This document shows, piece by piece, positions 17,733 to 35,079 of a stretch of 35,079 nucleotides of DNA; position 1 is the stretch's first letter, and each line of letters opens with the position of its first letter. Both the position numbers and the translations under genes were made by a program. Origin of the DNA: a virus; the IMG/VR virus record IMGVR_UViG_3300003322_000642, positions 28,130-63,208 of that record; one strand, 5' to 3'. Under the pieces are notes generated by a model. It was given only the letters and a program-made list of their open reading frames with translations. It had not been told where the DNA came from and made no database searches.

Positions 17733-17740
17733 AGATAGTA

Positions 17741-17777
17741 AGTCATTCGTGATCTATAATCAAGTCATCGATGACTT
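17741..17777 (-). promoter_or_regulatory. Double operator promoter
   Basis: A perfect 16-base palindrome AAGTCATCGATGACTT (17762-17777) lies upstream of the -10 TATAGA, and a second imperfect copy (17741-17754) just downstream, so the -10 is sandwiched between two sites. It faces the 17693 operon. The plus-strand gene at 17988 is about 210 bases away with no gene between. Confidence 0.6.
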
Positions 17778-23090: not shown

Positions 23091-23138
23091 TAGTCATTAG
23101 TGACCTATATTGTAGCGGATCAGAAAAATTGTTCGCAA
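23091..23138 (-). promoter_or_regulatory. Promoter with AAGTCA-type operator
   Basis: Minus strand: TTGCGA (23138-23133), 18-base spacer, TACAAT (23114-23109), then TAGGTCACTAATGACTA (23107-23091). One of the cleanest examples of the shared promoter form. Confidence 0.65.
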
Positions 23139-26502: not shown

Positions 26503-26529
26503 AAAGTCACCGCTGACTTACATATTATA
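26503..26529 (-). promoter_or_regulatory. -10 box with AAGTCA-type operator
   Basis: Minus strand TATAAT (26529-26524) followed after three bases by TAAGTCA-GCGG-TGACTTT (26520-26503). The -35 is weak. Between here and 26826 no gene is seen. Confidence 0.65.
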
Positions 26530-28664: not shown

Positions 28665-28716
28665 ATAAGTCACAGATTACATAATATCATCATGGCTTAC
28701 AAGTCAGTAATGACTT
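28665..28716 (-). promoter_or_regulatory. Double operator upstream of HD hydrolase operon
   Basis: A perfect AAGTCA-GTAA-TGACTT palindrome (28701-28716) and a second, partial site (28665-28680) flank a TATTAT-like -10 (about 28684). The sandwich layout resembles 17741-17777. Confidence 0.55.
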
Positions 28717-28731
28717 AGCCTGACACTATTC

Positions 28732-29358
28732 CTAGTGGATGAATCCACCCGTTGCCAGATAGGCACCGACCTGTTCGTGGGCGACGCGCTCCGCCTTGCC
28801 AACGGCGTTTTCCAGCGCTGCGACGCGTTCGTCCATGTCGATCATGGAACGCCGGATGTAGTAGTGGGCGCACTTGGTCCGTTCGTCCATCACCAAACCG
28901 AGGCAGAGCGACGAGATGTGTTCGATGTGAGCCTTGCTCGTTCCGGCCTTGCCTAGTGCTTTCACCAACGGAATACCAGGCTGAACCAAGATCACGGTAG
29001 AGAAATACCTGTTCAGTACGTCGAAGCAATCCAATATGTATTTTTCAAGTCTAGGCTCAAGCGACGGCGAAACATTGTCATTAAGGCATTCCGACAGCGT
29101 GTATGCCATAAGATCGATTGGCGTTCGATCAGTTATTGATCCAAAAGGAGCTGCAGCATAGGCGGCAGCAAACTCTTTAAGAATCTCTCCCTGAATGGCG
29201 AGTCTTATGTCGAAACCGTACGTTTTGGCCGGATCGAGTCCAGCTCTTTTGAAAACAGAACTTGCGGACGTTTCGACAAATTGAACCCCATGCTTGTCGG
29301 CGTAAGCCTTCGCAAGGGTTGTTTTCCCGCACCTTTGCGGCCCGAACAGCCCTATCAT
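28732..29358 (-). CDS. P-loop nucleotide-kinase-like protein
   Basis: Walker A GPQRCGKTTLAK at residues 6-17, an acid-rich switch region DRTPIDLMAYT (near 77-87), and an FSTVILVQPG strand. This pattern matches thymidylate/deoxynucleoside kinase and NadR-like P-loop kinases. Expected reaction: phosphate transfer from ATP to a deoxynucleotide or nucleoside, fitting the RNR/ThyX cluster. A lid Arg segment is not certain (RRSMIDMDERVAALENAVGK). ATGA overlap with the HNH gene above. A short stem (GTGGAT/ATCCAC) spans the stop region. Substrate not assigned. Confidence 0.7.
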   Translation of the reverse strand: MIGLFGPQRCGKTTLAKAYADKHGVQFVETSASSVFKRAGLDPAKTYGFDIRLAIQGEILKEFAAAYAAAPFGSITDRTPIDLMAYTLSECLNDNVSPSLEPRLEKYILDCFDVLNRYFSTVILVQPGIPLVKALGKAGTSKAHIEHISSLCLGLVMDERTKCAHYYIRRSMIDMDERVAALENAVGKAERVAHEQVGAYLATGGFIH

Positions 29359-30038
29359 GATTTCTCCAAGAAGTTAGATCGGCGATTTCCTCGTTTGGGC
29401 TTCACCGTGAGTGCTGCCTCGAGAGGAAGTCCGGATACGAGCCTGCTACGAAGTGTTGCTGGATTAATGTCGAACTCGTCAGCAAGCTGTTGGAGCGTTT
29501 TATGTGCGCCGTTGTGGTGAACAAACATATTGTCACGCCTATTATTATTTTGCTCTTTGGGCGTCGCCCAGCGGCAGTTTCCGGGTTCATAGTTGCCGTC
29601 GTTGTTTGGATAACGATCGAGCGTCTTACCTTCAGGCCGTTCGCCCATGTCAGCAAGGAAGTTCTCGAATTTCAGCCAGCGTTCGCAAACTCGAATGCCG
29701 CGCCCGCCGTAGTTCTTGTACGCCTTGCATTTTTCGTTTGTACAACGCTTTATCATTCCCGACCAAATCCGATACTCTGCGGTTTGGATTCTTCCCTTGG
29801 TGCATCCATGCGTTTCCGCATTTGGCGCCAATCTCGCCCTGCCTCTTGCCATCTCAGCGGCGAGGCAGCCGCAGGATTGAGATTTCCCTTTACGCAATGG
29901 GTTGCCGCGAATAAGTCCGACCGCTCCGCAGTCACAGAGGCATTTCCAGATAGATTGCCCGTCTTTGTCGGGCTGGTCGGCCTTTTCCACAACAAGCCAT
30001 CGACCAAACCTTTGTCCAGTGAGGTCGATGAGCTTCAT
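29355..30038 (-). CDS. HNH homing endonuclease with zinc-ribbon N-terminus
   Basis: Free-standing phage HNH endonuclease. N-terminal zinc-ribbon-like part with DLTGQRFGRWLVVEKA, Cys33/35/37 and Cys56/58; nuclease core YGGRGIRVCERW, FLADMGERPEGKTLDRYPNN and GNYEPGNCRW; a C-terminal helix-turn-helix (KTLQQLADEFDINPATLRSR) for DNA recognition. It is clearly related to the 33928 gene. Inserted between the MazG-like and kinase-like genes with overlapping ends (single-base and ATGA). Cuts intron-less alleles to spread (known for the family). Confidence 0.9.
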   Translation of the reverse strand: MKLIDLTGQRFGRWLVVEKADQPDKDGQSIWKCLCDCGAVGLIRGNPLRKGKSQSCGCLAAEMARGRARLAPNAETHGCTKGRIQTAEYRIWSGMIKRCTNEKCKAYKNYGGRGIRVCERWLKFENFLADMGERPEGKTLDRYPNNDGNYEPGNCRWATPKEQNNNRRDNMFVHHNGAHKTLQQLADEFDINPATLRSRLVSGLPLEAALTVKPKRGNRRSNFLEKS

Positions 30039-32839: not shown

Positions 32840-32887
32840 TTCCTTAACTCCTTCGATTGCGGGAGCATGTAGCCCCCGCTTGCTTAT

Positions 32888-32910
32888 ATTATAGCTCAGT
32901 TATGACTTAC
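32888..32910 (-). promoter_or_regulatory. -10 box with operator in the spacer
   Basis: Minus strand GTAAGTCATAACTGAGC (32910-32894) directly precedes TATAAT (32893-32888). Here the palindrome lies between the -35 and -10 positions instead of after the -10. Confidence 0.6.
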
Positions 32911-32920
32911 TTTTCAGGGT

Positions 32921-33931
32921 TCAAAAGTCGTCAAAAGTCAGTGCTCCACCAGTCTGGTAATCGGTCGGCTTCCCCTCGAAGAAGTTCGTCTCGACGCCAT
33001 TGATGGCACTGATCTTCTCAACCCACGGTGTAGGGTTGGCCACGCCAGGGTACAGCGGCGCCCAGCCCAGACGGTCGGTGCGCTTGTTCGCAAGCCACTT
33101 GATGCGGTTCTCAACGATGGTATCGGTCGCGCCCAGAACGCCCCCACTGATGATGTGCTTGCCCCATGCGGTTTCCAGCTCGACCGCAGCGCTCACCATC
33201 GCGCGCGCTTTGAAATAGAACTCGGGCGTGAAAATCTCCGGCCGCTCGATCTTCAGGCAGTGGTACATGTCGATGAAGAAGTCCAGGTGGGCCTCCTCGT
33301 CGCGGTTGATGTACTTGATCTGGTCCGCAGACTTCAGCATCTTGCCGTTCTTGGCCAGGAGGTAGAAGCCGAAGAAGCCGCTGTAGAAGTAGATGCCTTC
33401 CAGGCAAATGTTGCCGACGATCGCCAGGGCGAACTTCTCGGGCGTGAAACCGCCCCGCAGCTCGTCATTCTGTGCCAGGATCAGCTTGTTCTTGGCTGCC
33501 AGCACCGGGTCGCTCTCGTACATGCCGTAGATTTCCAGCGGGTTCGCGGAGACTGCCTCGGCCATCAGGGAATACGCGGTGACGTGGTTCGCTTCCTCGT
33601 ACGCCTGGCGCGAGATCGCCATCGAGGCTTCCGGACTGGTGATGTACGCGCCGATGTTTGTGATCAGGTTGGCGAACTGGAAGCCGTCCAGGTTGGACAC
33701 GAAGGCCAAGGCTTTGTCGTACACTCGGCGCTCACCCGGCTCCAGGCGGTTGCGGTAGCACGCCACGTCGTCGCCCATCGCAATGGACTCCGGATACCAG
33801 TCGTTGCGTCGAAATTTCTTGAATGCGTCCATCGCCCACTTATGCTTGAGCGGCGAAATGCACATGACCCTATCTTCTGGTCCCTGGATAAGACGACGGT
33901 TGTTGACCTTGTCGATCAGGGAATTGCTCAT
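32921..33931 (-). CDS. nrdB: Class Ia ribonucleotide reductase, beta subunit
   Basis: Small (radical) subunit that makes the tyrosyl radical needed by NrdA to reduce ribonucleotides to deoxyribonucleotides. Di-iron ligands: D82 (NLDGFQF), E113 and H116 (EEANHV), E179 (LEGIYF), E212 and H215 (DEEAHL). The radical tyrosine is Y120, four residues after H116 as in E. coli Y122. The C-terminal tail (ALTFDDF) is the part that docks to NrdA. Length 336 is normal. AAAGGA inside the preceding HNH gene serves as its ribosome site, and its ATG overlaps the HNH stop (ATGA). Confidence 0.95.
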   Translation of the reverse strand: MSNSLIDKVNNRRLIQGPEDRVMCISPLKHKWAMDAFKKFRRNDWYPESIAMGDDVACYRNRLEPGERRVYDKALAFVSNLDGFQFANLITNIGAYITSPEASMAISRQAYEEANHVTAYSLMAEAVSANPLEIYGMYESDPVLAAKNKLILAQNDELRGGFTPEKFALAIVGNICLEGIYFYSGFFGFYLLAKNGKMLKSADQIKYINRDEEAHLDFFIDMYHCLKIERPEIFTPEFYFKARAMVSAAVELETAWGKHIISGGVLGATDTIVENRIKWLANKRTDRLGWAPLYPGVANPTPWVEKISAINGVETNFFEGKPTDYQTGGALTFDDF

Positions 33932-34551
33932 TTGGTGCTTCCTTTCAGATGTTCGATTGCCGCTTCCGACGGCATCTTCTTGGTGTGGATCAGGTAGTGC
34001 AGTGCCTTGTACTTCACGCCGGCGGTGCGAGCCGCTTCCGCGATGGTCACGCGCTTGCCGTCGACTTCGACGTGGACGTTCTTGCGGGTGTTATTCGCCT
34101 GCTCGACCGGATTCGACCACCGACAATTACCTGGCTGGTAGCCTTTGTCGTTCTCGATGCGGTCGATGGAAGCGGCCTTCGGGCGTACACCCATGTCCTC
34201 AATGAAGTTCTTTACGTCATGCCAGCGTTCGCACACTGTAATGCCGCGACCGCCATACTCCGGGTAGTCTTCCGAGTTCGGGTTGTAGCAGCGAGTCATC
34301 ATGCGGCGCCAGGTCTGATAGGACGAGTGGTAGTACATGCCGTGCTTGGTCAAAGATTTCTTGCCCTTGTCGGCGTTGTAGCACCCGCAAGATTTGGTGG
34401 TCCCAGAAGTCAGGGAGGTGCAGCGAAGTTCAATCACGTTGCCGCAATCGCACTTGCAGCGCCACCTGGCGTGCTTACCAACCTCATGCGGCGCCTCGCC
34501 AATTACTACGAGGCGTTCGAAGCGTTGACCGGTCAAGTCCAATTTCTTCAT
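33928..34551 (-). CDS. HNH homing endonuclease between nrdA and nrdB
   Basis: Same plan as the 29355 gene: N-terminal LDLTGQRFERLVVIGEAP with Cys32/34/36 and Cys55/57, HNH core YGGRGITVCERWHDVKNFIE, DMGVRPKAASIDRIENDKGY, GNCRWSNPVEQANN, and a C-terminal helix-turn-helix (KRVTIAEAARTAGVKYKALH). Insertion is exactly in the nrdA-nrdB interval, ending in ATGA overlap with nrdB. Its start lies below a 15-base-pair hairpin that includes part of the ribosome site. RNR genes are frequent homes for homing elements in phages. Confidence 0.9.
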   Translation of the reverse strand: MKKLDLTGQRFERLVVIGEAPHEVGKHARWRCKCDCGNVIELRCTSLTSGTTKSCGCYNADKGKKSLTKHGMYYHSSYQTWRRMMTRCYNPNSEDYPEYGGRGITVCERWHDVKNFIEDMGVRPKAASIDRIENDKGYQPGNCRWSNPVEQANNTRKNVHVEVDGKRVTIAEAARTAGVKYKALHYLIHTKKMPSEAAIEHLKGSTK

Positions 34552-34558
34552 CGTTTGT

Positions 34559-34594
34559 CCTATATTGAGGGAATTTCACTTCCCTCAATATAGG
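34559..34594 (-). promoter_or_regulatory. 15-bp hairpin hiding the HNH ribosome site
   Basis: Perfect inverted repeat: arms 34559-34573 and 34580-34594 (CCTATATTGAGGGAA and its complement) around a 6-base loop. The AGG of the HNH gene's AGGA ribosome site is inside the distal arm, 7 bases from the ATG. No T-run, so control of translation or processing is more likely than termination. Confidence 0.75.
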
Positions 34595-34641
34595 TGTCAC
34601 CGCTTACTTACTATAAAGGCTCTCAGGTGCAAGATTCGCAA
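34595..34641 (-). promoter_or_regulatory. Promoter with AAGTCA-type operator at the nrdA end
   Basis: Minus strand TTGCGA (34641-34636, inside the last codons of nrdA), 18-base spacer, TTTATA (34617-34612), then GTAAGTAAGCGGTGACAC (34611-34595). The operator has one altered half (AAGTAA). Confidence 0.55.
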
Positions 34642-35079
34642 TCAGGATTATCGAGCGAGCACAGCTTATTGGACGTATCCTCGTCGGCCGACTCCGGCAC
34701 CGGTGCCGCGACAGGCATCTCCTCCTTCTTCACCGCGCTTTGTCCGCGCAGGTAGTAGGTGGTTTTCAGCTTGCGGCGCCAGGCGCGCAGGTAGATTTCG
34801 GACAAGTCCTTGCCCTTGATACCAAACGGCACGAAGATGTTCAGCGACTGGGCCTGGTCGAGCCAGAACTGGCGCACGCTGCCGGCGTCGATCATCCAGA
34901 ACGGATGGATTTCGAACGACTCCTTGCACAGCTCCGGACGCCCGTAACGTAGGCACGGATCGACCACGATGAAGGAGCCGGACTGGTTCTTCTTCGTGTA
35001 CTCGCGCTGGAAGATCGGCTCGATGGTCGGGGTGGTGCCGACGATGTTGCTGATCGTCGCGGTCGGCGCGATCGCCATC
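34623..35079 (-). CDS. nrdA: Class I ribonucleotide reductase, alpha subunit (C-terminal part)
   Basis: The 3' end of the large RNR subunit; the gene continues beyond the window. The segment MAIAPTATISNIVGTTP is the conserved NrdA substrate-site stretch. TTYYLRGQS holds the radical-transfer tyrosine pair (YY), and the C-terminal end has the mobile Cys pair CESCT that re-reduces the active site via thioredoxin or glutaredoxin. A linker of Pro/Ala/Glu lies between. Followed by a promoter and the HNH gene, then nrdB. Confidence 0.95.
   Translation of the reverse strand, partial: MAIAPTATISNIVGTTPTIEPIFQREYTKKNQSGSFIVVDPCLRYGRPELCKESFEIHPFWMIDAGSVRQFWLDQAQSLNIFVPFGIKGKDLSEIYLRAWRRKLKTTYYLRGQSAVKKEEMPVAAPVPESADEDTSNKLCSLDNPDCESCT

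Follow-up and report, generated by a model that had tools for sequence, protein, structure and literature searches.

A hairpin over the ribosome-binding site of an HNH endonuclease gene inserted in the nrdA/nrdB gap of a phage read as T5-like

In the 63,208-base IMG/VR contig IMGVR_UViG_3300003322_000642, an HNH endonuclease gene sits between the RNR genes nrdA and nrdB, and a perfect 15-bp hairpin in its leader pairs the AGG of its own Shine-Dalgarno sequence. The arrangement is best read as a switch of the I-TevI/Aeh1 mobE type, a reading that we hold to be moderately probable. The HNH gene would be silent on RNA that reads through from nrdA and open on RNA that starts within the 5' arm of the hairpin. 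The whole stretch analysed, which comprises the 35,079 nucleotides at the right-hand end of the contig, is referred to as the window.

An HNH gene inserted in the RNR operon

The kin of the window phage have genomes of ~112 kb and are labelled T5-like here on the basis of size and gene content. By the RNR genes, the nearest named phages are Pseudomonas phages nickie and hairong, with an NrdB identity of only ~40%. On the minus strand, the order is the C-terminus of nrdA, a 71-nt gap, the HNH gene, and nrdB:

34623..35078, minus strand: nrdA, last 151 aa of the large subunit of class I RNR, truncated at the contig end (PF02867, phrog_84)
33928..34551, minus strand: inserted gene for an HNH endonuclease, intact, 207 aa, with a stop codon that overlaps the start of nrdB (ATGA) (phrog_374, E 3e-71)
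33929..33945, minus strand: nrdB ribosome site and start, AAAGGAAGCACCAAATG, kept within the 3' end of the HNH gene (compare AGGAAGCCAAATG in L117)
32921..33931, minus strand: nrdB, class I RNR small subunit (PF00268, phrog_86)

The gap (34552-34622) extends exactly from the nrdA stop codon (34625-34623, minus strand) to the HNH ATG (34551-34549).

The phrog_374 profile spans residues 1-186 of the HNH protein, which keeps the invariant columns of a 13-sequence alignment. The N-terminus, MKKLDLTGQRF, is common to the homologues; therefore, the start codon is sound. Pfam and NCBIfam hold no family for the protein. Its AlphaFold model (pLDDT 80.6) has no match below E 0.35 in a PDB fold search, and thus the nuclease identity rests on sequence families.

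Comparison with relatives identifies the HNH gene as an insertion between nrdA and nrdB. As expected of a mobile element, close relatives lack it at this site. In L045/L054 (contig of 112,422 bases) and L053/L117 (111,592 bases), whose NrdA and NrdB are 83-86% identical to those of the window, nrdA is followed by nrdB after 55-81 nt. The sequence-only reading, which had placed a homing endonuclease in the RNR operon, is supported in that a phage-type HNH gene is inserted there. The nrdA gene ends in CESCT* in the window and in CESCQ* or CEACQ*, with a C-terminal Gln, in all 28 readable relatives. Therefore, the replaced tract begins in the last nrdA codon and takes in the whole leader, which suggests that the leader arrived together with the insert. 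At the other end, AAAGGAAGCACCAAATG of the window matches AGGAAGCCAAATG of L117; the nrdB ribosome site has been retained and also codes for the last HNH residues.

A different HNH gene occupies the same nrdA/nrdB gap in L046 (genome G003). Its product is 40% identical to that of the gap HNH gene of the window and nearer (48%) to that of a second HNH gene of the window at 29355-30038. Therefore, the gap has been colonised recurrently, at least twice. The L046 gene also belongs to phrog_374, its stop overlaps nrdB, and an operator and a hairpin lie upstream of it; in contrast to the window, 17 nt separate the hairpin from the start codon, its tail is TTTC, and the ribosome site is not part of the stem. 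The second phrog_374 gene of the window (29355-30038, minus strand) overlaps its upstream MazG-like neighbour and its downstream neighbour by 1-4 nt. In G001 and G002, ~320-330 nt of other sequence lie between the corresponding neighbours, with no phrog_374 gene there.

A perfect hairpin covers the HNH ribosome site

Most of the gap is occupied by a perfect 15-bp hairpin with a 6-nt loop (34559-34594, minus strand), evident in the sequence:

34580..34594, minus strand: hairpin 5' arm, CCTATATTGAGGGAA (sequence and ranking of hairpins in the window)
34574..34579, minus strand: hairpin loop, GTGAAA (sequence)
34559..34573, minus strand: hairpin 3' arm, TTCCCTCAATATAGG, which includes the AGG of the HNH Shine-Dalgarno sequence (sequence and folding)
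34558..34561, minus strand: HNH Shine-Dalgarno sequence, AGGA, 6 nt before the ATG (best Shine-Dalgarno match)

The AGG forms the end of the 3' arm and is paired, just as had been proposed from the sequence (arms 34594-34580 and 34573-34559). The 60-nt leader of the read-through RNA folds at a predicted -26 kcal/mol (z = -8.1; 0 of 200 shuffled sequences are equally stable), whereas RNA begun at 34580 has a weak predicted fold of -5.5 kcal/mol. The hairpin is the longest perfect one of the window, the runner-up having 9 bp, and a perfect 15-bp hairpin occurs anywhere in 1 of 40 Markov-simulated windows. Among 350 ORF starts preceded by a Shine-Dalgarno sequence in six related genomes, the HNH leader ranks second in stability. 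Coincidence is still less likely because the hairpin ends exactly within the ribosome site of an inserted gene.

The 7 nt between the stem and the ATG contain no T. A terminator reading is rejected because no U tract follows the stem: the combination of a G+C-rich stem and a U tract that marks an intrinsic terminator is missing, and the terminator scan gave no report at this hairpin. Translational coupling to nrdA as the main route is rejected as well, because the stop and start codons are 71 nt apart and the stem begins 28 nt past the stop. Ribosomes that end at a stop this far from the stem would leave it closed. Silence of the HNH gene on read-through RNA is strongly expected.

The inverted repeat could instead act as DNA, serving as a protein-binding palindrome, for example one through which the endonuclease represses its own gene, as has been reported for I-TevI. 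The dyad is perfect and adjoins a candidate promoter. However, 15-bp arms and a 6-nt loop placed exactly on the Shine-Dalgarno sequence are a better fit to RNA pairing, and no similar dyad occurs elsewhere in the window, so that a role as DNA appears highly improbable.

The exact hairpin was found in no genome contig. Its arms gave 25 matches in viral contigs, each to one arm and none to a hairpin, Rfam gave no match, and 19 other loci with homologous HNH genes hold no such hairpin. Compensatory changes cannot be counted, because the hairpin is known from one contig and no relative was found to carry the same one.

A degenerate operator and a candidate promoter in the gap

A palindromic operator, AAGTCANNNNTGACTT, is dispersed through the genomes of this phage clade, with 28-50 AAGTCA-type sites per genome compared with 0.6-3.6 in shuffled sequences. 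The operator class is real, six genomes together holding 209 sites. The distance from the operator to a TATAAT-like element peaks at 15 (37 of the 209 sites); a distance of 17 occurs once, and some others fall at 14 and 18-19. The window has 25 operator sites at no more than one mismatch, compared with 0-4 in shuffled sequences; copies lie at 17740-17777, 26504-26519, 28701-28716, 32908 (minus strand), and 19563 (plus strand), among others. The elements in the gap are as follows:

34610..34615, minus strand: TATAGT, a second, alternative -10-like hexamer, upstream of the hairpin (sequence)
34596..34609, minus strand: degenerate operator, AAGTAAGCGGTGAC, with one mismatch to AAGTCANNNNTGAC (counterparts in the nrdA/nrdB gaps of L046, L047, L048, and L121)
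34587..34592, minus strand: TATATT, candidate -10 inside the hairpin 5' arm, with a predicted start at ~34582-34579 (sequence)

The sequence-only reading had placed an AAGTCA operator promoter next to the hairpin. An exact AAGTCA is absent from the 71-nt gap, the nearest being one within the HNH gene (34407, plus strand) and others at 32903-32940; the part of the claim that stands is the one-mismatch copy AAGTAAGCGGTGAC (34609-34596). Where the operator promoters of the clade have an intact AAGTCA half-site and TATAAT at 14-15, the gap has AAGTAA and a -10 at 17. The gap operator is at best a derived or decayed copy of AAGTCANNNNTGACTT. In L046, L047, L048, and L121, nrdA is followed at this position by an exact operator; the two closest relatives have none there.

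The same reading had proposed that TATATT acts as a -10 and yields RNA without the 5' arm, and this proposal stands in part. TATATT does lie within the 5' arm (34592-34587), but it begins 17 nt after the first base of AAGTAAGCGGTGAC rather than at the clade peak of 15, and a consensus scan finds no -35, either for TATATT or for TATAGT. TATAGT (34615-34610) could itself be the real -10, and RNA from it, with a start at ~34603, would retain the hairpin. The operator at 23091 (plus strand) also has TATATT as its -10, there at the usual distance. Judged from these elements, a promoter with a TATATT -10 in the 5' arm is plausible.

If there is no internal promoter, the hairpin would silence the HNH gene on all transcripts, with rare opening by breathing or RNA processing, and TATATT would be fortuitous, its letters being forced by the AATATA in the 3' arm. 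Such simple occlusion would account for the missing -35 and for an operator that is degenerate and off-spaced, and the chance of a TATATT match is a few per cent (from 0.0039 -10-like hexamers per leader position). It fits less well with the near-match operator and -10 found at the same gap position in several relatives, or with the recurrence of the operator/TATATT pair at 23091 (plus strand). We regard it as rather unlikely.

Hairpins in the nrdA/nrdB gaps of T5-like phages

We compared 27 gaps between nrdA and the next gene in T5-like phages, including that of the window. All 27 contain a hairpin. We had first taken the hairpin to be peculiar to the HNH gene and gave up that view on this result. 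A point that the sequence-only reading did not contain is that leader hairpins are general in these gaps; what is special here is the cover over the ribosome site and the lack of a U tract. In the 26 other gaps, 14-38 nt separate the hairpin from the following start codon and the first 8 nt past the stem include 1-7 T, and many of these T-tailed hairpins are terminator-like. The hairpin of the window is the only one that enters the ribosome site, with a longer stem that ends 7 nt before the ATG and no T after it.

The hairpin might accordingly be an ordinary intergenic hairpin of T5-like nrdA/nrdB gaps, i.e. a weak terminator, a stabiliser of RNA ends, or a processing site, whose contact with the ribosome site is incidental. 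Its slot is filled in every gap examined, mostly by hairpins with T-rich tails, and hairpin leaders are common for other genes in the T5-like genomes read, which counts against a special meaning here. Against this explanation, the T tail is absent and the 15-bp stem runs through the Shine-Dalgarno sequence to 7 nt before the ATG, unlike all 26 others; moreover, the replaced tract begins in the last nrdA codon, suggesting that the leader came with the insert. An ordinary gap hairpin is distinctly unlikely.

In L124, L128, L131, L132, L139, L145, and L146, the RNA start predicted from a -10-like hexamer falls inside the hairpin 5' arm. Starts in the 5' arm are also predicted at leaders of other genes, for example at the TAGAAT-AGGCGGG leaders of four genomes. 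A start point within a hairpin arm may be an old habit of the T5-like relatives. A clade-wide form of the switch is a tentative possibility: operator-linked promoters would start inside the 5' arm, so that only RNA from upstream folds the intergenic hairpin; the folded hairpin would usually be a terminator, and the HNH locus would have changed its output to masking of a ribosome site.

Several related leaders were seen. At L087:2895 (minus strand), L092:15234 (plus strand), L098:8810 (plus strand), and L103:7698 (minus strand), a TAGAAT -10 abuts a terminator-like, T-tailed hairpin, with the predicted start in the 5' arm. In the nrdA/nrdB gaps of L131-L135, L148, and L159, a different palindrome, TAGTAAGCGCTTACTA, overlaps TATAAT at the same place; in this lineage the operator sequence differs and the layout is kept. 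Downstream of nrdB in the window (genome G000; 32860-32908, minus strand), an operator and TATAAT lie ahead of a G+C-rich hairpin that has no T tail, and a ribosome site comes next; similar leaders occur in three relatives (L096:975, L090:6956, and L105:11116). These are possibly 5'-end hairpin leaders, with the hairpin at the expected 5' end of the RNA. In G004, operator copies lie inside perfect 15-bp (L106:14052-14087) and 11-bp (L108:18086-18118) hairpins directly before a -10, which joins operator, hairpin, and promoter in a further manner.

Comparison with known systems

A hairpin that masks a ribosome site, combined with a promoter whose RNA drops the 5' arm, has been described for I-TevI, segB, and Aeh1 mobE (PMC2988022), and the T4 I-TevI hairpin also in PMC3014915. 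The likeness to I-TevI that had been noticed from the sequence is supported in its geometry, which is that of the published cases: as in I-TevI and Aeh1 mobE, read-through RNA folds into a stable hairpin that takes up the ribosome site, and here a candidate -10 lies in the 5' arm.

With T4 I-TevI, and also I-TevII and I-TevIII, the HNH locus shares a very stable ribosome-site hairpin on read-through RNA; RNA from their own promoters lacks the 5' arm (PMC2988022, PMC3014915), as would RNA from the candidate promoter here. The I-TevI group are T4 intron genes with late promoters, whereas the gene in the window is free-standing, in a T5-like phage, and has a sigma-70-type -10 beside a phage operator. 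Aeromonas phage Aeh1 mobE, according to the work of Gibb and Edgell (2007, 2009) as recounted in PMC2988022, is likewise a free-standing HNH gene in the RNR region with a hairpin-sequestered ribosome site, and has a late promoter. It splits nrdA, however, and the promoter class differs, while the window HNH gene lies between nrdA and nrdB; the two are likened by layout, not by protein sequence. T4 mobE, like the gene in the window, is free-standing, codes for an HNH endonuclease, and lies between nrdA and nrdB, but it overlaps the nrdA stop (UAAUGA) and has an internal terminator, and the review describes no ribosome-site hairpin for it (PMC2988022), in contrast to the 71-nt leader with a hairpin seen here. 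No earlier report of such an arrangement outside T4 and its relatives, T5-like phages included, was found in open-access papers, and one may exist in a subscription journal.

Discussion

A phrog_374-type HNH gene has entered the nrdA/nrdB gap, clipping the last nrdA codon alone and sparing the nrdB ribosome site. RNA that reads through from nrdA carries both arms of the hairpin in which the HNH Shine-Dalgarno sequence is buried; in the switch that we propose, no endonuclease would be produced from the RNR transcripts. The TATATT -10 by the degenerate operator would give RNA that starts in the 5' arm and lacks it. On RNA from ~34580, the HNH site would be largely accessible, because the 5' arm is missing and the predicted fold is weak. 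Production of the endonuclease would then depend wholly on the firing of the operator-linked promoter, and nrdB would be translated throughout from its own site. This promoter switch, and with it the regulatory use of the hairpin, we infer from the layout of the leader.

If the proposed switch is true, the hairpin control of homing endonucleases seen in T4 and its relatives would have evolved in a T5-like phage as well, here with a different HNH family and a different class of promoter, and once more in the RNR operon. It would point to convergence, in which a gene whose product nicks or cuts the genome and which lies in an early operon comes under a control that keeps it silent unless its own promoter is used. 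A wider pattern among T5-like phages also emerges from the comparison, namely hairpins with a predicted start point in the 5' arm.
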